64,000 nucleotides of DNA from Golubevia sp. BC0850 (Eukaryota > Basidiomycota > Exobasidiomycetes > Golubeviales > Golubeviaceae), in contig JAAVVG010000045.1 of the NCBI GenBank assembly GCA_012976225.1, positions 1 to 64,000 of the forward strand, read 5' to 3'. Under the pieces are notes generated by a model. That model saw only the letters and a program-made list of their open reading frames with translations. It did no database searches and was not told the origin of the DNA. A program made the position numbers and the translations under genes. The stretch's first letter is position 1. Every line of letters starts with the position of its first letter. This document shows, piece after piece, positions 50,830 through 64,000 of the stretch.

Positions 50830-53800
50830 TCAATTCGCTAGCCACATGTCTACGTTTTCGGCGTCTTGTTCTTGCCTTTCCCTCTCTATCCTCTCTCTGA
50901 TTTCCCTTTCTCTTTCAGTCTCGACCTGCTCCGGCGTATTTTGAGTCTCCACTTCTCCATTCGGTCGAGGGAAAGCTTCCTGTCGTAGTGGAGACGGATT
51001 GAAAGCAGAGGTGGAATTGGCATTGAGGTTGGTGTTGATGTTCGATGGGATTGATGACGTCGGACTTGAAGTACTGTTTGAGGCGACACTTCCCCAGTCT
51101 CGATCGTAGCTTGGAGGTAATTCATCCACATCATCTTCGTCGTCACTCTCAGGCTGAGGTAGCGAACCACCATCAGAATGAACGAGAACTCTTCTTGTTC
51201 TTCCATCTTGAGATTCGGTTTGAGTCATCATAGTTCCACTTATCGAGCTCTGATTCTCTGGGTTGAAGATAGTACTTCCGCCAACGAGAGATGCAGTTGG
51301 AGCGTAGGATTCAGCTGCACTTCCAAAGTGCTGATTCCTATGATGCTGACCAGGCAGGGATTGTGGATTGAGAGCTGGCGGCCAACTGAAAGCACTTGAG
51401 TTTGTCGGGACTGTTGAGTATCCTCCACTAGTCGTAGGTCCATTCCCACTCGAAGGAGAGATTGGAGAAGAGTTGAGAGAGGAAGGCTGATAGAAAGTCC
51501 CACCCCCATTCCAGGTTCCGGGCACAGACTCAGTTGTCTGGTGTCCAAGGCCTCCTCGAGCAGAAGAGGTCGAGCCTGACCCTGATCCAGATCCAGAGCC
51601 AGAGACCGTCGAGGAGCCTTGACCGGCAGCCGAGACGAAAGGCGAGACCGAGCTGAAGAGGAGGTAGGAGAAAACAGTTTGGCCGAAAGTCAGTCGAATG
51701 ATCGAAATTGAGCAAGTCGCTTTGCCACACTCCTTCTTGGCCTCTAGGACTACCCACTAGGTTTGGTTCACACCTCTCCTCCAACCTCTTCCACCTTCCC
51801 TATCCTCAGCATCCACGAACTTTGGTTCTTTCCACATGAGCTCTTCTCTCTTTCTCTGTTTTCTCTTTCTGTAGAAGAAACAAACGACCAAAGCAGCGAT
51901 GACCAGACCAACAGCTACAGCTCCACCAATGACACCTCCAATGATGGCTCCGTTGTTCTTCTTCTGAGAAGAATATTCAGAGATAGCTCCTTCGAGGTTA
52001 TAGAATCCGGCGATAGGATCTGAAGGGACTATCAAAGGAGTTTGAGTGTTGAATACTCCTGCCCTTCTCAACTCAGCAGCGCATCCGAGATTGGAGGAGT
52101 TCTTATTTGGAGCGATAGTGTAGACTGAGGAGGCACCACCACTTCCTCCAAAGTAGTTAGAATCCCCCATGACGATTTCTAGAAGCGTTCCGGCTGGGAA
52201 GGGGAGGAAGGTTCTGAAGGTGAAATCGGTAAAGTTGATTTGATTCAATCCTGCTGTGACACCGGGCACTAGATTGATGGACATCGGTGGACTTCCAAGA
52301 GGAAGATAAGTGAGAGTGAAAGGCGCTTGACCTTGAAGGGAGAAAAGGAGAAAGATTGAATGAGAAAACGAAGTTGGTCAATCGAGCCTCGTCTCTATTC
52401 GCAACTCACCTCGATGATCTTGAGATGAGAATTCGACCTCTTCGCATTCTTCGAAAGCTCCACCTTCGTTGTCGTCCACAATTTTGTCCTAATTGCAGGG
52501 TAGGAAAGAACGCAGGGTCAATAGAAATGGCGTAAGTTGAATGTATGCCTCCCAAATCCAAAGAGTTCAAGAGACTACTCGAGGAAAAAGCGTCTAGAGA
52601 ATGGCATGAATACTCACAATACCCCAATACCAGTTGTTGTTCTCGGTCCAGGGGTTGCAGCTCGAGGGGGCTCCATGAGAGGTTGTCATGGAAAGGACAC
52701 CGGCTGCGAGAGGTGGAGAATCAAAGAAAACGCGAAGGTATCATGATGAGCAAACCTTCTCAAGTCTCATACTTTGGGCAGAACGCTGGGATATGGCTCA
52801 AGGCTTCTTTAGGTCGAAGGTGGAGCAGAGATGTCATTCCAAGTCTCGTCCTTTTCCTTCTTCCCAAACTCTCAGATGTCTCCGAAAAGGATCCTATCAT
52901 CTGTTGATTCTCAAAATCTCTCCTCCTACTATCAGACAAATAGATCGACTCACAAGTATTCGCTCTGCCTTGACTATCCCCCACTCCCACCGAGAAAGAA
53001 TCAACCTGACCATTTGGATTTGGGACTGAATATTGGAAAGTCACCGAATCGTTGTTAGGGCCTGATCTTGGATAATCGGAATTGACTCTCCAGGTAGGTA
53101 CTGCGGAATAGTTCCCGACGATCCAAACCTAGAACGTTGAAGAGAGAGAGGTATATCCAATGGGGAGAGGTAGAGAGAGGGAGAGGAATCCCGAGGGTAG
53201 AGGATTGGTCAGTCTTCATGATTTATTTGATGTGCATTGAGCTATCTCGTTTGGATTGTTAATGAAGATTTTCTCTCGTTCGTGGCTGATCATTTGATCC
53301 ACTTGGACTCAGCATTTTCGAAACGAACTCCAGGAAGTGAAGGGCCAGGATGGAAGTGCTCCGACCCATTCCTTCCTCTTCTTCGCTCTCTTACTTCCCC
53401 GGAAGATCGATCAACAGTCTTTGAATAATTTCACATTCCCATGTGCGAGGAAGCCACTTCTGTTGCCAATTGACTCATCTGATTTTGCTGCGCCTGATCG
53501 AACCCCAATGCCTGTCCTTCTCTCTTTCACCATGCTCTCCATCTTAGACTACTCACAGTATAAGGGAAAGCATCATCTGAAACTGGGAAAGTAATATTCA
53601 GAGGAGTGCAGGCTCTAGGCAAAGAGAGAGTCATAGGTAAAGCCATGTCACTTGCTGCTGTTCCTGAAGATGAGGATGAGGCTTGACCATTCGCCATGAT
53701 GGTGGCTGATATAGTTAAAATCAAGAAGGTGTTGAATAGAGAGAAGGAAGAGGAGAGTATTTGACTTAAGATTGAAGTTGAAGATGAAACCTTTCGCCTT

Positions 53801-53898
53801 GAAACGAAAGGAGATCGAGCAGAGGTAGTAGAAGATGGAGAAGCGGATGAAGAACAGGTTGAAGGTGTGGCAGTACTACCTCCAAGGAAGTTCATCAT
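50830..53898 (-). CDS. P1: receptor-like single-pass membrane protein, tandem family
   Basis: Six exons: 53898-53557, 53128-52954, 52703-52618, 52488-52410, 52331-51758, 51652-50830; 692 residues. Parts in order: Ser-rich N-terminus with an internal hydrophobic signal (LFNTFLILTISATIMANG), ectodomain 1 (CTPLNITFPVSDDAFPYT; VWIVGNYSAVPTW; SVGVGDSQGRANT), ectodomain 2 (FEECEEVEFSSQDHRGQAPF; FRTFLPFPAGTLLEIVMGDS), transmembrane helix IIGGVIGGAVAVGLVIAALV, basic stop-transfer FFYRKRKQRKREE, and a ~275-residue cytoplasmic tail with VDELPPSYDRDW (PPxY) and a charged coiled end. The most diverged and longest copy; it has two extra introns in ectodomain 2 compared with P2-P4. Ectodomains resemble the two-fold beta-type surface domains seen in unnamed basidiomycete membrane proteins. 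Ligand and role unknown. Confidence 0.72.
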
Positions 53899-54699
53899 TC
53901 TCTCTGACGTTTGAATTGCCTTTGCCTTGTTGACAATCAATTGTCTGCTTCTTGAAGAAGTTCAAGACCGAACAGCACGGAAAAAAGGAAGATGAAGATG
54001 AAGATGAAGATGGATGAAAGAGGAAGTTCAGTCCAGCTGCCCAGATCAGCCAAGTCGGACCCAGTTCGGGGCGTGTAGACTCACCTCAAAGACGTTGGTT
54101 GGTAAGAGTAGAAGAAGAAAGGAAATTTATTACAGAAGAGAGAAAGAAGATGAAAGGGAAAGGAAAGAATCATCATCTTCTTGTGAATAATTGGCCATCT
54201 GCTGTCTCTCACAGTCACCCGAACACCTTAACATTTCTCTCCTTCCATCGCCGCTACTCTATCACCTCGCTAAGGAGTTCTAAGTAATCTAAGCCACGTT
54301 TTCCCTCCTAGCTCCTCGGTTTGATCACATCCGTGCTGCATTTCTGCCCGATTGATTAAAGTTGGGAGCCATATCGAGCCATGTGGCAGTATTGCTTTGA
54401 TCGAATCTGGCAGGAGAGCAGGACAGAACCAGAAAACGACAGCTGTCGGCGTTGAAGTTGATTTCTTCCTTCCGTTTAAAGCCAGAAGGAAAGAAAGGAG
54501 TTCTGGTCCAGAAAACTCAAGCGAAGTGATAGAGCGGATTGACAGAGGGGCGTTTGGAAGCCTGAGGGAGTGTCGACTCTCTTTTCTGAAACACCTAGCG
54601 TTTCGTGTCACTATGAAATTTTTCGATGAAAAAGAATGGATATTCCACTGACATTAAAACAAGACAGAGAGCGACTAATAGACCCAGGACAAAAGAGAA

Positions 54700-55380
54700 A
54701 AGAGGGAGTCGGGAGCTGGGGTGGGGGAGCAACGAGAGAGCAGCTTGATGAAAAGGGTACTAGGACTTGCAGGAGTGAAAGAGACCCAAAGAAAGATGAA
54801 AAGTTGGTACTTTGAAGTCCAAAAAGAAGAAACTAGAAACTGGTGAAGAGGAGACTGGGTTAATGTGGCTATGGCCGGGGACGTTTGGGTGTGGATGACT
54901 CAAGTTGGGGGTAAAGGGAGAAGAAAGGGGGGAATTGGTGCTTACAGAAAGAGGGACTGATTCTGCTTGGAGCCGTGGAAGAAAATTAGAAGGGAAGGAG
55001 CTAAAGATTGAGGGGAGAAACAGAGACTTCCATCCTTCTCGTTCTGATCAACCGCATGGTTAACAAGATGAAATAGAGCAACATTATATTGACTAAGACC
55101 ACAAGCTATAAATAGGTAACCCATTTGACTACATGTAGAATAAGCAATTACTCGTTTAAGATCATTTTGTAGTAGTCCTGTGCTAGCTGCAAAGAAAGCT
55201 TGATCCTCTTGTTTTCGAGCTTCTCGAATCTATTCAAGCTTTTGAGTTGACGTTCTTTTGTTGACTTTGATTTTGACTCTAATTGTGACCTTTCAGGCTT
55301 TCGTTTTGTGATGGTTGTTTTTCTAAGATTTGAAGGTGTTGAAGGAATCGTTCTTCTGAGACTGGACTTCCTTTCCCATG
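54700..55380. repeat. Duplicated 3' flank, copy beside P2
   Basis: Diverged counterpart of 59410-59940 beside P4. Landmarks in the same order: GGAGCTGGGGTG, GATGAAAAGGGTA, GTGGCTATGGCCG, CAGAAAGAGGG, GATTCTGCTTG, CTTCTCGTTCT. Shows that the tandem duplication included the 3' flank. Confidence 0.65.
55053..55200 (-). other. Nuclear copy of mitochondrial nad5 (NUMT)
   Basis: On the minus strand the sequence reads [20 protein letters not shown] then [20 protein letters not shown] and ALFHLVNHA. This is the highly conserved core of NADH dehydrogenase subunit 5 (fungal ND5: [19 protein letters not shown]). The reading is uninterrupted and AT-rich relative to its surroundings. Only about 49 codons are present, with no nad5 sequence before or after, so it is an inserted fragment and not a gene. 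The corresponding flank of P4 goes straight from TCTATGATTAACC to CTTAATCTTTT with no such insert. Confidence 0.85.
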
Positions 55381-55386
55381 TCCAGT

Positions 55387-57438
55387 CTACTTTGGATAGG
55401 CTCCAGGAGCCTCTTGTCCTCCAGATTGATTGGCTTCGAGATCATAGTTACTGACTACAGCTTCTTGACTGAGACTGCGATCTGGATTTTGAACTAGCGA
55501 GGGGATTCGAGTTCCTTGTTGACGAGCTTGCTGTTGAGCACCCCAATCGTTGTATTCAGAGAGGTATTGATCGATTGGCATGTCTTGACCGTGAGTTGGA
55601 GGATGATCTAGAGTTCTGGCTTCGATTTGACCTTGTAAGTTTCTATGAGACTCCAATCCATCTTCATCGTTTGAAGGGACTCCAGTCAGAGTGTTGGGAA
55701 TTGGAGAGACGGGATGGTCTTCTTCAGTGAGATTCTTGGCTCTCAACTGGTAGGAACTAGTTCCGAAACTTTGAGGTTGATTGTTTGAGCTCGTCATAAC
55801 TTGAGATTGAATTCCAGGCGTGGGTCCCAAGTCCTGAGCGTCAGTGCTTTCTCCTGCAGTCGAAGTTGGATGATTCGAGTGGTGACCGGTCGAACTTCCG
55901 AACCCCAAAGCTCTAGCTCCCAAAGGATTCTCAGCACTCATGGCGTCACACTCAGACAGAGGACGGGCATCTGGAGATCCGAAAGGAGTGATAGAGCTGA
56001 GAAACAAACAAGTGAAGAGGTCAGCCAAATGTCAACTGGCAATCGAACTGGGTTGACTTCTGAGAACTCACTAAGATTGAGCACAGTCATTGACTCCTAA
56101 GTCTTTCTTTCTCCCTTGACCAAGAATTACGGGATTTCCATCTTCATCTCCGACCAGATCTACGAAGATGTTCTGCTCTCTTCTTGCTTCTTCTCTGACT
56201 TTCTTTTGTCTTTTCTTGTAAATGAAAAGAGCGACGAGAGCAGCGATGACAAGACCTGCAGCGACGGATCCACCAATGACTCCTCCAATGATTGTACTTG
56301 TTCTAGTAGCTTTGCCTGAAGCTGGTTCGTTACCGACCTTGACGGCTCCTGGAATGTCGTTGAATTGAGCAGTAGTTGATCCAAGAGGTGGGAGAACGTT
56401 GGCCGTGTCTAGACCCTCGATTTGATAACCTGGCTCAAGACAGAAAGTCTCTGTAGAGTTCAGTAGTATAAACTGATCGGAACTTCCAGAGTTACCACCA
56501 GCAGCAGAATCTCCTGCCGCTACCTGCAGCTGAGTTCCAGCAGCGTATGGGATTGGAGTGAGATAGCTGAAAGTAGTGTAATTGACTGATTGACCAGGAG
56601 GCATTGTGGAGATCAAAGCACTTGCTGGAACTCTGACAGTCTTTGGACTTTGTTCGAATGGTAACCAAGTGAGAGTGTAGTTTGGTGGAGCTGAACGTAT
56701 CTCAGTTTGAGGGATGTAAACTCTAACGAATCCACACTAAGCGTAGTTCTTTCCACCTTCAGATTCTGGTTGAGAATCAAAAGCGAAGAACCAGTCCGAT
56801 GCTTGAGAAAAGGTTGGGCAGGAAGCATTTCCTGAGGGAAGAATTGGGATTTCGGCAGCTTCGAGAGTCGGAGAAAGTCAGAATGTATGCCATTTTGAGC
56901 TCAAAGCTCAATACTTCGAAGGTACCCACAACTACTCCCATTTCCAAGACTGTCAGATATAGCGATGTGAAGCACGTTTGCAAATCCATCTTTGGCTGGA
57001 ACCAGATACTGGAAGGGCTCGTTCACAGGGTAATCGGCTTTGATTGAGTACCTGTAGATTCCAGCTCCGATACCTATAATCCATACAATGTAAGGATAAC
57101 CTTCTGGAATTCTGTCAAAAGTGATGTCCATTGGAAGGCATGCGACAGCTGAAGTGTGTTTGAAGGGTAGATCTCCGAAGACGCGAGGCAAAAAAGAAAG
57201 CAAGAGAAGAGTTAAAGGGGTCGCGAACAGAGTCAACTGCAACTTGAAACAGAAAAGAAAGATCAGTAAGATCTCATACTTATCGTAGGCAACAGATATC
57301 AGATGGTTTTTTTGGGTTGCATTGAGGAAGAGCATCCCACTAACAATGCAGCCACGATGTCTACGAACGATGAGGTTTTGATAGGTTCGATTGCCCTTTC
57401 TTTGACGTGGAAATACTCACAAAGCTTTTGAGTACCAT
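55387..57438 (-). pseudogene. P2: receptor-like membrane protein with one nonsense codon
   Basis: Exons 57438-57421 (18 nt), 57242-56930 (313 nt), 56858-56072, 55996-55387, 575 codons. Signal peptide (LFATPLTLLLLSFLPRVFG), ectodomain 1 (SAVACLPMDITFDRIPEGYP; PFQYLVPAKDGFANVLHIAI; SDSLGNGSS), ectodomain 2 (SCPTFSQASDWFFAFDSQPE; APPNYTLTWLPFEQSPKTVR; GTQLQVAAGDSAAGGNSGSS), helix TIIGGVIGGSVAAGLVIAAL, juxtamembrane KKRQKKVREEARREQNIFVD and a Gln/Ser-rich tail. In ectodomain 2 a TAG (56739-56737) stands where P3 reads the Gln of DYAQCELV. Everything else is open, so the loss may be recent. First two exons have the same lengths as in P4. The tail exon holds the 354-bp tract identical to P4. Confidence 0.72.
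55453..55806 (-). repeat. 354-bp tract identical to P4 tail exon (copy in P2)
   Basis: By direct comparison I found no mismatch with 60019-60372. It codes for the tail from QVMTSSNNQPQSFGTSSYQL to SRSLSQEAVV-like end (RSLSQEAVV). Immediately outside, the two genes differ clearly (upstream GIQS here against ANS in P4; downstream SNYDLEANQSGG against ETFDPENDQGGS). Confidence 0.9.
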
Positions 57439-57978
57439 GATTTGAAGGTTTGTTAGAGGATATTCTTCAAATCCTAGAAAAAGAAGTTGAGAAAGGAGAA
57501 GGGAGAAGGACGAAGATGAACGGGGTCGAACTTGATTCACAGATGCTGCCAAAAGTTTGCTCAATGCAGCACGAAATTTAGATTCACTTCCGATTCGAAC
57601 TTTGAATGCTTCAGACTCGTCACATTTTGAGATTAGAACAAGAACCAGTATCAATAGGTACAAAAAATGGGAAAGTATGGCTTCAACAAAGAGAGAACAG
57701 CGAGAGAGACAATGATTCACAAAAAACGCTAGGAGTTGTGACAATTTCTGGTACAGAGTTTGAGAGTACTATGAACGAAGAAGATACATTCAGCCGACGG
57801 AATAGGTAGAATAGAGACGAACGGCTTCAGTAAGTCGACAGAGAAGGGGTGGAAAGTTATTGAGACAGTTGAAGAAAACCAGATTGACTACAAGAGGAAA
57901 ATCAATTCAATAATGAAAGACTTCCAAAGTCTATTCCAGAATGGTCTGTTGAAAGCAGAAGCACTAGAACTTTCGGGC
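57439..57978. other. Spacer between P2 and P3 relic
   Basis: About 540 bp. A minus-strand open frame of ~127 codons (57361-57744) overlaps the P2 first exon and shows no family features; it is not called. The P2 promoter must lie here. Confidence 0.35.
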
Positions 57979-59055
57979 TCAACGTTGACGTTTCCAGAAA
58001 GATAAAAATTGAGGTGTGGATCCTCCAGCAGGTAAAGCGTTTGAAGTGTCCAAATTCTCGAATCTGTGGTCTGGTTGAAAGCACGAAGAGTCCTTGGATT
58101 GTAAGACTGAGAATTCGTCAGAGCTTCCACCATTTCCTCCTCCGAGTGAATCTCCAGCAGCAACTTGAAGTTGAGTTACAGCTGCGAAAGGGGTTGGGGT
58201 GAGGTAGCTGAAAGAGGTCCCTCCATCTGTTAAGGCGCTTGCTGGAATGTTAATGGTCTTTGGACTCTCGTTGAATGGTGACCAAGTGAAAGTGTAGTTG
58301 GGTGGAGTGGAACGAGTCTCGGCTTCAGGGATGAAGATTCTAACGAGTTCGCATTGAGCGTAGTCCTTTCCTCCTTCGGATTCTGGTTGAGAATCGAAAG
58401 CAAAAAAGCGGTCGGAAGCTCTGCTGGATGAAGCACAGCTATCATTCTCGGAAGGCAGGATTGGGAAGGATTCGGCTGTGGGCGATGGGCGAAGGCCAGA
58501 TTTCAAAGGAGAGGAAACGAAATGAATAGGAGTCTCAACATGGGGTAAAGCAGAGAATAAATAATTGTGCTCTGGACACTTACAGGTGTTTCCGTTTCCT
58601 AGACTATCAGAGACAGCGATATGAAGAGCAGCAGGAAAATCACCTCTGTTAGGAACCAGGTACTGAAAAGGCTCATCTTCAGGATAATCTCTTCCCATGG
58701 TGTAAGGAACGACTCCGGCACCAATTCCAATAATCCAGATACTGTAAGGATAGCTTTCTTGAACTCTTTCGAATGTACTGTTCATTGGAGTGCAAGCAAC
58801 AGCAGTAGAGTGAGTGAAAGGCAAGTCGCAGACGACTGATGAAGCCATGCAAAGAAGTACGACGACCACTGGAAGAACTGAAGAGAATTAAAATTTTGAG
58901 AAAGGATGAGAAGATAGAGAGCGTTCCAGTCGGCTTTGAGTCTCTTAGGCGTTCTGAATGGTCGAGTGGGGAAAAATGTCGAAAGCGTTTGCTTTTGAGA
59001 AGTGAACCTGTTCAGTAGAACCAAGATTAATACTCACAACGCTGTTTAGCATCAT
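57979..59055 (-). pseudogene. P3: receptor-like family member lacking membrane part
   Basis: Exon 1 59055-59038 (ATG ATG CTA AAC AGC GTT, 18 nt like P2 and P4), exon 2 58877-58584, exon 3 58475-57979. Signal peptide (VVVLLCMASSVVC), ectodomain 1 (STAVACTPMNSTFERVQESY; PFQYLVPNRGDFPAALHIAV) and ectodomain 2 (DRFFAFDSQPESEGGKDYAQ; CELVRIFIPEAETRSTPPNY; GTSFSYLTPTPFAAVTQLQV) are well preserved, but after STPQF the frame ends at a TGA and in the other frame FYLSGNVNVEPESSSAS resembles the P2 stalk before the sequence diverges. No transmembrane helix or tail follows. Exon 2 is also one base out of phase with exon 1 compared with P4. A secreted decoy is conceivable; decay is more likely. The 108-bp intron is stop-free. 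Confidence 0.65.
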
Positions 59056-59952
59056 TGAATTGATTTTGTCTAGAAGTTCAAAGTTAGTTGAGGAGATGAA
59101 CCTTGGGAGAAGAAGAAACAAAACGAACTTCCCAAAAGTTCGCATCACGTCATCGGAGGTTCAAACTTTCAGCCTAACGCACTCGAGCTTCTCGTTTCAA
59201 GCTCTTAGGAGCTCAACATACGATAGGGTTCGGATCTGAAAAGAAAGCCATGAAGTCTCGAGACTAACGCCCGTTCGTGAGAATCCTTGAACGTTTGAGA
59301 AGTCGACGATAACTCTGTCTTCGCGAATTTGGGGAATTTGAGATCCCTTCGAATTAGGAAGAAGCACAAGCGGAACCTAGGAAGAGAAGATACGCACTGA
59401 TTTCTGAGCCCATGGGAAAGAGACAAGAAGGGAGCTGGGGTGAGAAGCAACGAGCAAAGGAGAGAATGGGGTGAACAGTGATGAAAAGGGTATTGTAATC
59501 TGTAGAAGTGGAATGATTCGGAAGAAATACAAGACATAGGTACTTTGAAGCCCAAAAAGAGGAGAGCAAAAGAGAATTAAGAATAAAGTGGCTATGGCCG
59601 CGGACGTTTTGGTGACGGACGGAGAAGTGAACTGATGCTTGCGGAAAGAGGGTATGATTCTGCTTGAAACTGTGGAAGGAAAATCAAAGCCTAGAAGAAT
59701 GAGAATTGACAGGAAAAGAAGAGATTTGACTCCTTCTCGTTCTATGATTAACCCCTTAATCTTTTAGTTTTCAATTTCTCCTCAAGTATTCGAGCTTTTG
59801 ATTTGAGATTCTGTTGTTGATTCTGATTCTTATTGAAAATTTGAGCTCTGGGATCTCTCGGGGTTTTGCGGTCTCCTGAAAGAGTTGAAGACTTGACTCC
59901 TGTCTCCTAGTGTTGAGATTCCAAATCTCAACTTTTCCCTCCTATTTCCAAG
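59056..59952. other. P3 upstream region and P4 3' flank
   Basis: About 900 bp without a recognised gene. The part from about 59410 is the counterpart of the P2 3' flank. Open frames near 59205-59570 on the minus strand show no family features. Confidence 0.4.
59410..59940. repeat. Duplicated 3' flank, copy beside P4
   Basis: Counterpart of 54700-55380, without the mitochondrial insert. Landmarks GGAGCTGGGGTG, GTGATGAAAAGGGTA, GTGGCTATGGCCG, GGAAAGAGGG, GATTCTGCTTG and CTTCTCGTTCT appear in the same order. Confidence 0.65.
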
Positions 59953-61923
59953 CTACTCTGGATAACTTCCAGGAGCCTCTTGACTTCCACCTTGATCATT
60001 CTCAGGATCGAAAGTCTCGACTACAGCTTCTTGACTGAGACTGCGATCTGGATTTTGAACTAGCGAGGGGATTCGAGTTCCTTGTTGACGAGCTTGCTGT
60101 TGAGCACCCCAATCGTTGTATTCAGAGAGGTATTGATCGATTGGCATGTCTTGACCGTGAGTTGGAGGATGATCTAGAGTTCTGGCTTCGATTTGACCTT
60201 GTAAGTTTCTATGAGACTCCAATCCATCTTCATCGTTTGAAGGGACTCCAGTCAGAGTGTTGGGAATTGGAGAGACGGGATGGTCTTCTTCAGTGAGATT
60301 CTTGGCTCTCAACTGGTAGGAACTAGTTCCGAAACTTTGAGGTTGATTGTTTGAGCTCGTCATAACTTGAGAGTTTGCCCAAGAAGTGATAGAATCGTGA
60401 GCGTCACTGAATCCACTTTCGGAAGGAGGTGGATGATTGGAGTGACCAGTCGAACTTCCTATTCCTCTGGCTCTGAGTGTTTCGGCACTAAACGTGTCAG
60501 TTTCAGAAGCGGGTCTGACCTCTGGAGATCCGAAGGGAGTGATGGAGCTGAGAAACGGGGATGTTGTAAAGCAATGTCAGTTGACTGGCAAGAAATCGAA
60601 ATTTTCACTCAAGTGTCTTAATACTCACTAAGATTGAACGGAGTCATTAACTCCCAAATTTTTCTTTCTTCCTTGTCCTAGGATTTCAGGATTACCATCT
60701 TCTTCTCCTACCAGATCTACGAAGATGTTGTGTTCTCTTCTTGCTTCTTCTCTGACTTTCTTCTGTCTCTTCTTGTAAATGAAAAGACCGATAAGAGCAG
60801 CTACTACTAGACCAACAGCGATTGAGCCACCGATAACTCCACCTATGATAGCTGGAGTACTTGAACCTTTCAAAGCTTCCCCGTCAGGCACAGTGATTGC
60901 TCCAGGAAGATCCAAAAATCTAGCCGGTAGTTGACCTCTGACTTGAGGCAAGGCATGTTGGGCATCTACCCCCTCGAGTACAAAGCCTTGATCTAGACAA
61001 GAGTTGTTGACGGAAGACTTCATAGTAAAGACAGAAGAGGAGCCTGATGTTCCTCCTCCTTGGGAATCTCCAGCAGCGAGTTGGAATTCGGTTCCGGCTG
61101 AGAGAGGATTGGTACCCCGGTAACTGAAAGCCTCATCGTCTTGATTCAGAGCCGAGGGGGGAACGTTGATTGTTGTTGGTTTTGCTCCAAAAGGTAGGAA
61201 AGTGACTGTGTAATTGGGCGGTGTTGAACGCTCGTCTGTTGGGAACCAATGGACGAGATCGCATTGGAAGTAGTCCTCACTCTCGACCTCTCCTGGAGCT
61301 GGAGGATCGTAAGCGACAAACCACTTAGGAGCCCCGTTGAAGATTGGACAACTTGTGTTTCCAGAGGGAGAAGGCAAGATTTGGATAGATTCAGCTGAGA
61401 TAGAGGCGAGGGGGAAAGCAAGAAAAAGTCAGCAGGTTGTCCATTGTTTCAAAAGCAAGCAAACCGGAGAAACTTCAAGAGGCCAAAATCTCACAACTGT
61501 TTCCATTTCCAACACTGTCAGCAATAGCGATGTGAAGAAAAGGATCTGGACCTGCCACAGCGCCTGAAGAAACGAGATACTGGAAAGGCTTGTCGTCCGG
61601 ATAATCCTCTTCGATGAGAAAGGTTTTGATTCCATCGTTGACTTTAGCTATCCAGATGACGTAAGGGAATTCACCCGGAGTTCTGTCAAAGGTGATGTCC
61701 ATCGGCAAACACTCCACGGCTGAGGTGTGACTGAGAGTCAAGTTTTTGGCGCAGACTCTTGACAAAGATGAAAGAATGGAAAGAGAAGTCAAAATGATCG
61801 GAAGAAGCTGAAGAATAAAAAGAGGTTTTTGGTTAAGTGAGCGGGTCTTATCGGAGAGTGAAAGGTTGTGGAAATCGTCTGACGTCTTTCGCGAGCAATG
61901 CTAACCATTTTGAAGTTATTCAT
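59953..61923 (-). CDS. P4: receptor-like single-pass membrane protein, intact
   Basis: Exons 61923-61906 (18 nt), 61807-61495 (313 nt), 61394-60629, 60547-59953; 563 residues, in frame throughout. Signal peptide LLPIILTSLSILSSLSRVCA, ectodomain 1 (SAVECLPMDITFDRTPGEFP; PFQYLVSSGAVAGPDPFLHI; ADSVGNGNS), ectodomain 2 (CPIFNGAPKWFVAYDPPAPG; STPPNYTVTFLPFGAKPTTI; GTEFQLAAGDSQGGGTSGSS), stalk, helix AIIGGVIGGSIAVGLVVAAL near 295-318, basic juxtamembrane KKRQKKVREEARREHNIFVD with acidic LVGEEDGNPEI, and a tail of ~215 residues. Intron 1 uses a weak donor (GTTAGC) but the same 6-codon first exon occurs in P2 and P3. The tail exon is joined at TA|C (Tyr). Function unknown; a surface receptor or adhesin-like sensor is inferred from the layout only. 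Confidence 0.75.
60019..60372 (-). repeat. 354-bp tract identical to P2 tail exon (copy in P4)
   Basis: Partner of 55453-55806, no mismatch seen over the full length. It lies entirely inside the tail-coding exon; the transmembrane exon and the 3' flank of the two genes are clearly diverged. Confidence 0.9.
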
Positions 61924-62714
61924 CGTGGTCGATGATTCTAATTGAGTTGATCAAGTTGAGTCTCTTTCGGTTCATACAGGTTGAACTGAGAAAGAAGATG
62001 AAGAAAAGTGAAAGGTTGAGAAGAAGAAGAAGAAGAATCAAGAAGAAGAAGAATAAGAAGTAAAAGAAAGCGGTGCGCGAATCAGACGCAAGTCACTTCG
62101 ACTTCGCACCGCTTCTACGGACTTCGATGCTCTCTCGAGTCTCCTTTGCTGTTCTTGTTCTTCCAAATTGCTACTGTGATTAGAGGTGCCTTTCAATTCA
62201 GATTAAAGGAAGGCGAAAAGGGTGGAACGGAGAAGTGAGAGACGACTTGCTCTTTTGAACTATGTCGAGAAACAGAGGCATTGAGTTCGAGAACAGGAAA
62301 GAAAGTGAAAAGAGAGCTGATCTCAGGAAGATAGAAGAAATTTACAATGACAGTGAGCAAAATGTTGATGAGGAGAAAAGATAACCAAAGATGGATGGAA
62401 GAAAGGGGAGGAAAAGACAACAACAATGATAGCTATAACGTGAGATTTAGAAGAAGTAGAGTAACAGTGAAGGAAGAATTTCTAAAATTAAAGTGAAGAT
62501 AAGAGTGGGAATCAAATAGGAAGTGAGGAGTCTGAAGTGACGTAATTTTCACGGAAGAGAGTACAATTCCAAGCAAGGATTAAATTGATGGAGGCGCGAA
62601 AAGGAGCAGGTAATTGAAAAAGTCAGAATGAAAAGTGGGAAAGAATTTGAAGTTGAAAGAGAGCTGAGGAGGAACGTCGACTTTTCACTTTGACGCATAC
62701 ATTCTCTATTTTCC
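61924..62714. other. P4 upstream region and P5 3' flank, with GAA repeats
   Basis: About 790 bp without a recognised gene. A (GAA)n microsatellite-like stretch lies at about 62019-62061 (AAGAAGAAGAAGAAG with two interruptions). The rest is purine-rich on the plus strand. Confidence 0.45.
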
Positions 62715-64000
62715 TTAAAACCTATGATTGTACTGAGGTCGTTCAGAATGATAAAACATTGAAGCATCTTCTTCATCCCCTCTTGAATCGATTTCTTGCT
62801 GTTGCGGCTGTCGTTGTTGAGAAGAACTTTCGGAAGATATCTGCACTGGAGAAAGGTTTTCAACTGGAGGTTGAGTTGTAATTAATTCATGAACTTGAGG
62901 TTGTTGACCACTCCAACCACCATATTGAGGAGGTAATTCATCAACTTCCTCTTCTTGAGTCCCAGCGTTTAATTCCAGTGGTCCAGCATCGGCATGTTGT
63001 AAAACTCTTCTATCAGTACCATCACTTCCCATAGTTCCATATTCATCTCCATGAGCTAATAAACCTTTTCTAGGTAGAGGGGGAGCTTCTGCTCTATTGA
63101 TGCTTTCATTTCCATTCCTTGTTCTCAACTGGTAAGATTCAGCTGAAGTAGATGGAGCTCCGCCTACTGAAGATAGTGAATTCCTTCGACCATCTCGATA
63201 TTGAGAACCGCTACTACTTGGTTGATGATTGCTTAATCCAGCTGCTCCTACTAATGCTGCTGTGTTTCTTGTTGAGCTTGAGTTCATCGTACCAATGTCT
63301 CCAGCGTAAACGTCACTTCCAATTCCTCCAACTCCATTCGAGAAAGTCGATCTTGGATAAAGCGGATCGTTGTAGTTTCCATTTCCTCCTCCTCCCCAAG
63401 TAGAACCACCTGCGCTGATGCTTTCTGCTCGAGATGAAGATCCGAAGTCTGGTGAAGGATGAGAAGGAGTGGCGTGGTATTCGAAGGGAGAGACGGAACT
63501 GGAACGAAGATTGAAGAGCAAAGGAACGGAAAGTAAGCAATAGTTCGCTGACAATCGGAGTGACTTCGAAAACCCAATCCTACTCACTAAGTCTGACCAA
63601 CTCCATCATCTCTTCTCCTTCGTTGACCAACTCCCAAGACCTCTACGTTTCCGTCTTCATCTCCATCCAGATCGACGAATCGGTTCTCTTCCTTTCTAGC
63701 CTCCTCTCTAGCTTTCCTCTGCCTTCTTCTGTAGATCATAAACGCTATCAAAGCAGCTACGATCACAGCAACTGCTATCGCTCCACCCTGTGAGAAGAAG
63801 ATAGAGGTCATGTCAGCTCTCAGCATTACATAGCGAGCCGCAAAGACAATTTGTACTCACGATGACACCTCCAGTGATAGCTCCAACATTGGATCCTCCG
63901 CCACCACTCGTCCCATCTCCATTAGCAGAATCCACCGCTCCCGCCAAATTCGAGAACGTAGCTACAGTACTTCCACCAGTCGGTAGAGCAGCCGTCGTGT
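62715..64000 (-). CDS. P5: receptor-like membrane protein, 5' part outside window
   Basis: Visible exons: from the window edge to 63861, 63787-63588, 63498-62715. The first visible exon codes a Gly/Ser stalk (TAALPTGGSTVATFSNLAGA; DGTSGGGGSNVGAITGGVI), the second the membrane helix (GGAIAVAVIVAALIAFMIY), basic segment YRRRQRKAREEARKEENRFV and acidic DLDGDEDGNVEVLG, and the third a 261-codon tail with VDELPPQYGGWSGQQPQVHE (PPxY) and Gln-rich end. An additional intron splits the helix region compared with P2-P4. The tail resembles P1 more than P2/P4 (DELPP-Y motif). Ectodomains and start codon must lie to the right of the window. Confidence 0.75.

Follow-up and report, generated by a model that had tools for sequence, protein, structure and literature searches.

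What do five receptor-like membrane proteins encoded side by side in a fungal genome do, and which of their parts has selection held constant? This question is raised by the end of a 64,000-nucleotide stretch of Golubevia sp. BC0850 (contig JAAVVG010000045.1), for which an earlier note had described a tandem array of five minus-strand paralogues, all sharing a signal peptide, two homologous cysteine-containing ectodomains, a GGVIGG-type helix, a near-invariant juxtamembrane segment and a tail on its own exon. The stretch, called the window here, is the opening 64,000 bases of contig C39 (73,585 bp) in a genome assembly of 25.8 Mb and 64 contigs, and its introns and genes are of fungal type. 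The models of the five genes, g1 to g5, were built by hand from sequence only, using GT-AG introns and alignment across the paralogues. On the codon counts given below, the pattern is that of a conserved helix-juxtamembrane island flanked by two variable regions, rather than that of a conserved inside and a variable outside. Our preferred reading, a tentative one that we hold at clearly less than even chances, is that the array may be a birth-and-death cluster of uncharacterised single-pass type I membrane glycoproteins, and that the tails of some members would recruit an Rsp5-type ubiquitin ligase.

Regarding the layout, five paralogous units lie on the minus strand between position 50830 and the end of the window (Table 1). 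When the part of g1 from the ectodomain to the juxtamembrane segment was used as query, the best exon of each other copy was found with expectation values (E) of 2.5e-59 (g2), 3.4e-30 (g3), 3.4e-60 (g4) and 1.1e-26 (g5). The place and the number of the paralogues were therefore described correctly, but not all the parts are common to all five. Gene g1 lies only partly in the window: it reaches contig position 64809, with a tentative ATG exon at 65719-65826, and has five exons in all (contig 65826-62715). Gene g3 is a truncated copy, whose model lacks the helix, the juxtamembrane segment and the tail and meets a stop eight codons past the last aligned residue. It also has a short ATG exon (59055-59038), and if this is spliced at the counterparts of the g2 and g4 sites, the only donor choice tried, the hydrophobic exon falls out of frame and runs into a stop. 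The 108-nt intron of g3 (58476-58583) is stop-free and in frame, so that one long open reading frame spans both outer domains. Gene g4 carries an in-frame stop codon. Judged from these models, g1, g2 and g5 look intact, whereas g3 and g4 look broken as assembled.

The common plan of the family is two outer domains, a GGVIGG-type helix, a juxtamembrane segment that is first basic and then acidic, and a long tail; the helix, missing in g3, is present in other family members. By hydropathy, a signal peptide is plausible in g2 and g4, whereas the hydrophobic part of g1 and g5 begins at residue 36 or 51, which is compatible with either a signal peptide or a signal anchor; a signal peptide shared by all copies is therefore borne out only in part. 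The cytosolic tail is a separate last exon in g1, g2, g4 and g5, as had been claimed, although g3 has no tail. In these four genes the junction with the tail exon splits the Tyr codon (TA-C or TA-T) that opens a YS[IV][ST]PF motif. A genome search with E up to 10 gave 23 matches with g1 as query and 22 with g5, and we count five related loci outside the array, on four other contigs: two on C64 (at 709.6 kb on the minus strand and at 214.4 kb on the plus strand, the pair C64a/C64b) and one each on C13, C55 and C15. The C55 locus encodes a more distant two-domain protein (E 0.06 with g1 and 2.0e-5 with g5), and the C15 relative, another such protein, was found via C55 (E 1.2e-5). Both C64 members also have their tail on a separate last exon, with the same split Tyr codon at the junction.

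Which part has been held constant is best seen in that C64 pair, outside the window. Substitutions were counted pairwise by the Nei-Gojobori method; in many of the pairs, synonymous sites approach saturation. In C64a/C64b the proportion of non-synonymous differences (pN) is 0.034 (interval 0.000-0.077) in the juxtamembrane segment, 0.321 (0.276-0.367) in the ectodomain and 0.312 in the tail, while the proportion of synonymous differences (pS) is similar throughout, namely 0.62 in the ectodomain, 0.59 in the transmembrane helix plus juxtamembrane segment, 0.58 in the juxtamembrane segment alone and 0.58 in the tail. With a pN about nine times lower than that of the ectodomain, the juxtamembrane segment is, as far as these counts go, clearly under purifying selection in that pair, which gives the cleanest support for this conclusion. 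The difference is milder in g1/C64a (pN 0.179 in the segment vs 0.391 in the ectodomain) and in g2/C64a, where the non-synonymous distance (dN) of the segment is 0.385 vs 0.58-0.62. Within the array, amino-acid identity of the segment falls from 88% (g2/g4) to 61% (g1/g2) and 50% (g1/g5), and g3 lacks it, so that "near-invariant" overstates the case. The strong conservation that the earlier note proposed does hold in the C64 pair, whereas the likeness of g2 and g4 is partly due to gene conversion.

This last point comes from the synonymous sites. In g2/g4, pS is 0.75 (0.66-0.84) in the ectodomain, 0.48 (0.35-0.64) in the helix plus juxtamembrane segment and, once a 354-bp tract identical in both tail exons is set aside, 0.50 (0.36-0.65) in the tail; the value for the juxtamembrane segment alone is 0.46 (0.27-0.67), an interval that just meets that of the ectodomain. 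Gene conversion or unequal exchange in the recent past, superimposed on an earlier homogenisation of the 3' half, would account best for these values and for the tract, and a collapsed assembly is another possible source of the identical tract. Because of the lower pS and the 354 identical bp, the likeness of g2 and g4 over helix, juxtamembrane segment and tail should be attributed in part to conversion. Gene conversion can thus mimic functional conservation over part of a cluster, which is a warning for the interpretation of paralogue arrays. The 3' flanks are alike too (g4 54746-55045 and g2 59479-59743): four short families, each with two copies about 4.7 kb apart, match at 71-90%, so that duplication or conversion may have involved a unit larger than the coding region.

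The outer domains had been thought to change rapidly and to diversify. In every pair and domain with a computable synonymous distance (dS; nine pairs), the ectodomain dN/dS was 0.12-0.44, and therefore nothing indicates positive selection on the ectodomains in these pairwise comparisons of few and highly diverged sequences. Furthermore, the tail changes about as fast: in three pairs, pN of tail and ectodomain was 0.286 and 0.337, 0.312 and 0.321, and 0.407 and 0.391 respectively, and outside the identical tract the dN of the tail was 0.35-1.26. Taken together, these values leave the idea of diversifying ectodomains unsupported.

The two outer domains themselves were confirmed as described. Cysteines number exactly four in all seven ectodomain regions examined (g1-g5, C64a and C64b) and sit at offsets 1, 84-92, 112-123 and 202-219; each region also has between four and seven N-glycosylation sequons. 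An hhalign comparison of the first with the second ectodomain gave a probability of 94.05, while none of 20 column shuffles went above 7.70, and on this profile evidence both outer domains are homologous. Domain 1 of the C55 protein matched the first ectodomain at 97.3 and the second at 91.6, figures without a shuffle control, and domain 2 of C55 and the C15 pieces gave weaker matches (0.45 to 77). One alignment, A3, was dropped, as MAFFT had placed pieces of the second ectodomain on the first.

Regarding their fold, no Pfam family matched the ectodomain at its cut-off. The best match below the cut-off, VTT_dom on g5 (E 0.0037, 18.1 bits vs 33.9), was taken as chance, and so were Big_6, a bacterial Ig family, on g1 and DUF5812 on C55 (both E 0.08 and below the cut-off). 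When PDB sequences were searched with an ectodomain profile of four rows, there were two matches, with E 0.27 at best. Predicted structures, which had been suggested as a check, were obtained as two AlphaFold2 models from contiguous window translations and window-only alignments, and the second of them was submitted to Foldseek. This two-domain model has six predicted strands per domain, and among its 807 Foldseek matches none had E up to 0.001, although the top PDB matches include FN3 scaffolds. On these models, each outer domain is likely to be a beta-sandwich of the Ig/FN3-like type that a disulfide closes, although the predictions are too weak to prove the fold.

The case for ligase recruitment comes from the tails. 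Those of g1 and g5 share RRVLxHxDxGxL...VDELPPxY...W, with the remainder hard to align, and the C15 tail has VIDLPPQY. At the aligned site C64a has IPLPY, g2 and g4 have YLSEY, and the tail of C64b ends before the C-terminal block. An L/PPxY motif is thus present in three of the nine members with scannable tails (g1, g5 and C15). Tail similarity was evaluated against 500 shuffles per pair in 15 pairs, shuffles that keep composition and not local runs. No shuffle reached the real similarity in g1/C64a, g1/g5, g1/C64b and C64a/C64b, one did in each of g1/g2, g1/C15 and g5/C15, and three in each of g2/C64a and g5/C64a. The alignments of the g1, g5 and C15 tails with one another extend to the L/PPxY site. 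Furthermore, contig C61 has a 763-residue frame with three WW domains followed by a HECT domain, the layout of Rsp5/NEDD4. The C-termini of the C15 relative and of g5 also have an acidic-DMWL motif near them (EDDADMWL and ENVDMWLAN), and g1 has EEDASMF nearby; acidic-DMWL is possibly a second short tail motif.

According to our preferred reading, the ectodomain would serve to bind a client in the wall or at the surface, and through the L/PPxY motif the tails of g1, g5 and the C15 relative would attract a ubiquitin ligase of the NEDD4/Rsp5 type, which in turn would set the surface residence time of the protein or of its client. The juxtamembrane segment could be a shared docking or sorting module, and members without the motif, such as g2, could be adaptor-independent versions. 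Several results weigh against this reading. The motif is absent from six of the nine tails scanned (g2, g4, C64a, C64b, C55 and C13), and it arose in 425 of 5000 shuffled tails of g1 and in 242 of 5000 of g5, that is, in 5-9%; the aligned context therefore weighs more than the motif alone. Tail similarity is at chance in g2/g5 (102 of 500 shuffles), g5/C64b (109), g2/C15 (304), C64a/C15 (149) and C64b/C15 (135), and weak in g2/C64b (12 of 500). In g1/C64a the pN of the juxtamembrane segment is only about twofold below that of the ectodomain, and the fold rests on models with a mean pLDDT (predicted local distance difference test) of 38.8 and 41.4, the second one being that with a best Foldseek E of 0.045. 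Finally, one paper states that Rcr1, an L/PPxY protein of yeast, does not need Rsp5 for its activity in chitin deposition (PMC5578492), so that L/PPxY need not carry the whole function. Since only three of nine members have the motif, we lowered our confidence in this reading slightly, from a level that was already below even chances. The signalling or trafficking role proposed in the earlier note thus stays reasonable for the juxtamembrane segment, and for trafficking it gains some support from the motif, although it would still be an extrapolation.

There are precedents for such a role. According to PMC2810449, yeast membrane adaptors with PPxY or LPxY (Bsd2, Tre1/2, Ear1, Ssh4 and possibly Rcr1/2) bring Rsp5 to other membrane proteins, and PMC5578492 ties Comm, PRRG4 and Rcr1/2, all transmembrane L/PPxY proteins, to the surface levels of other proteins. 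The array family resembles the adaptors Rcr1/2, Ear1/Ssh4, Bsd2 and Tre1/2 in its membrane anchor and in the motif of g1, g5 and C15, in a genome that has a candidate ligase frame. It differs from them in its tandem-domain ectodomain, in its conserved juxtamembrane segment and in the majority of members without motif; moreover, Ear1 and Ssh4 carry SPRY domains (PMC2810449). By analogy, the family would work like these adaptors rather than belong to them.

The rival explanation that survives best, although we consider it unlikely, is that these proteins are wall sensors or adhesins analogous to Wsc and Mid2, with ectodomains that bind a wall polymer and a juxtamembrane segment that feeds a Rho/MAP-kinase pathway. 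Those sensors are also single-pass proteins with signal sequence, ectodomain, helix and tail, and a single-pass layout with a conserved cytosolic segment fits the idea. So does the presence, upstream of the array on this contig, of a gene for beta-glucan synthesis (SKN1/KRE6/Sbg1, E 3.3e-21 and 1.1e-19), but this neighbour may be a coincidence. In those fungal adhesins whose N-terminal domains are recognised, beta-sheet domains are in use, including Ig-like and FnIII ones (PMC6023273). Nevertheless, no WSC domain was found among the Pfam matches listed with E up to 1, nor, for the ectodomain of g1, among those with E up to 10, and Mid2 (PF04478) matched only the helix of g5, below its cut-off (E 0.24, 11.6 bits vs 23.2). 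Furthermore, in five proteins Ser and Thr make up 9, 13, 13, 15 and 25% of the 55-residue stretch that precedes GGVIGG, so there is no obvious Ser/Thr-rich stalk.

Somewhat less probable still is that the array has no special role, its local duplicates drifting and decaying while gene conversion keeps them alike. Two of the five copies are broken as assembled, and the 354 identical bp are shared between an open copy, g2, and a broken one, g4; but the dN/dS of the ectodomains and the juxtamembrane constraint in C64a/C64b point to long-term selection on the family. Very improbable, finally, are kind-recognition (allorecognition) receptors that combine variable ectodomains with a constant inner part and are renewed through conversion and pseudogene donors. 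The tandem layout and the g2/g4 mosaic of old ectodomains and a homogenised 3' part would suit this idea, but the ectodomains show no excess of replacement changes and the identical tract sits in the tail.

A bolder version of the ligase reading would be a tandem set of two-domain proteins over one constant sorting or signalling module, homogenised by conversion, with separately evolving ectodomains and a PPxY switch in some copies. We give it hardly any credence, but if true it would give fungi an equivalent of clustered recognition receptors, with a surface level set by an Rsp5-type ligase.

Could the family be a known group with an assigned function? Membership of the Wsc, Mid2, Kre9/KNH and ErbB families was tested for each of them, and the matches supported none. 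TM_ErbB1 (PF21314) gave a weak match on the helix and the basic residues of the juxtamembrane segment only (best E 2.9e-05, 24.1 bits vs a cut-off of 27.1), and no ErbB ectodomain or kinase was among the Pfam matches. Kre9/KNH is a short beta domain that occurs in secreted proteins of fungi, but PF10342 had four genome matches at E up to 10, two of them over the cut-off, and none at the family loci. Literature searches of partial coverage, which are no proof of absence, did not bring up a named family with such an architecture. Among mushroom-forming fungi, two-domain proteins that have comparable motifs are probably common, though without a name. A tandem cluster of surface proteins in which copies decay and convert is an ordinary type of locus; the part most worth attention in this family without name or model is the short conserved inner segment. 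A constrained cytosolic segment of 40-50 residues in a family that Pfam does not cover, with a putative ligase-docking motif in some members, could give a handle on the regulation of fungal surface proteins.

Table 1. Coordinates of the array and of an adjacent insertion (positions in the window)
Feature	Position	Strand	Exons or remarks	Basis
g1, 3' part, with VDELPPQYGGW in the tail	62715..64000	-	exons 62715-63498, 63588-63787, 63861-64000 (the last runs on to contig 64426)	gene model
g1 juxtamembrane segment	63588..63733	-	YRRRQRKAREEARKEENRFVDLDGDEDGN...	gene model, alignment
g2, open, 563 residues	59953..61923	-	4 exons: 61906-61923, 61495-61807, 60629-61394, 59953-60547	gene model
g2 juxtamembrane segment	60629..60777	-		gene model, alignment
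Tract in g2 tail exon, 354 bp	60019..60372	-	identical to g4	sequence comparison
g3, truncated copy, both ectodomains	57979..58877	-	exons about 58584-58877 and 57979-58475	gene model
g4, with in-frame TAG	55387..57438	-	4 exons: 57421-57438, 56930-57236, 56072-56858, 55387-55996	gene model
g4 in-frame TAG	56737..56739	-	between both ectodomains, upstream of the helix	gene model; one TAG also in genome search
g4 juxtamembrane segment	56072..56220	-		gene model, alignment
Tract in g4 tail exon, 354 bp	55453..55806	-	identical to g2	sequence comparison
g5, open, 692 residues, most divergent	50830..53898	-	6 exons: 53557-53898, 52954-53128, 52618-52703, 52410-52488, 51758-52331, 50830-51652; tail with VDELPPSYDRDW	gene model
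nad5 fragment, 146 bp, outside the family	55054..55199	-	3' flank of g4	PF00361 E 6.4e-14; 100% to C42:36558-36703

Regarding the relationships within the family, a tree of eight proteins (g1-g5, C64a, C64b and C55) grouped g3 with g4 (support 96/95), C64a with C64b (100/99) and g2 with g3 and g4 (83/99), and gave no firm place to g1 and g5. At C13 (437500-442500) there is a member whose ectodomain is split over several frames, with the frames of helix, juxtamembrane segment and tail kept; from its frames this is apparently another decaying copy. The matches on C1, C28, C6, C5 and C4 were not counted as relatives, being limited to the helix or lying in unrelated frames, which by eye look Kelch-like, Ser-rich, SH3-like and pseudouridine-synthase-like; a match on C10 (E 0.48 with g5 as query) was not counted either. 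The frame on C5 (256000-261500), matched through its helix only, is a single-pass membrane protein with a C-terminal stretch that by eye is SH3-like, as in Sho1.

The nad5 piece is, judging from its identity to contig C42, which carries COX1 exons, either mitochondrial DNA that entered the nuclear genome very recently or a chimera of the assembly. On the other side of the array, the SKN1/KRE6/Sbg1 gene lies upstream of g1 at about 70.1-71.5 kb of contig C39 on the plus strand, and between the two there is an AhpC/TSA-like frame whose match is below the cut-off.

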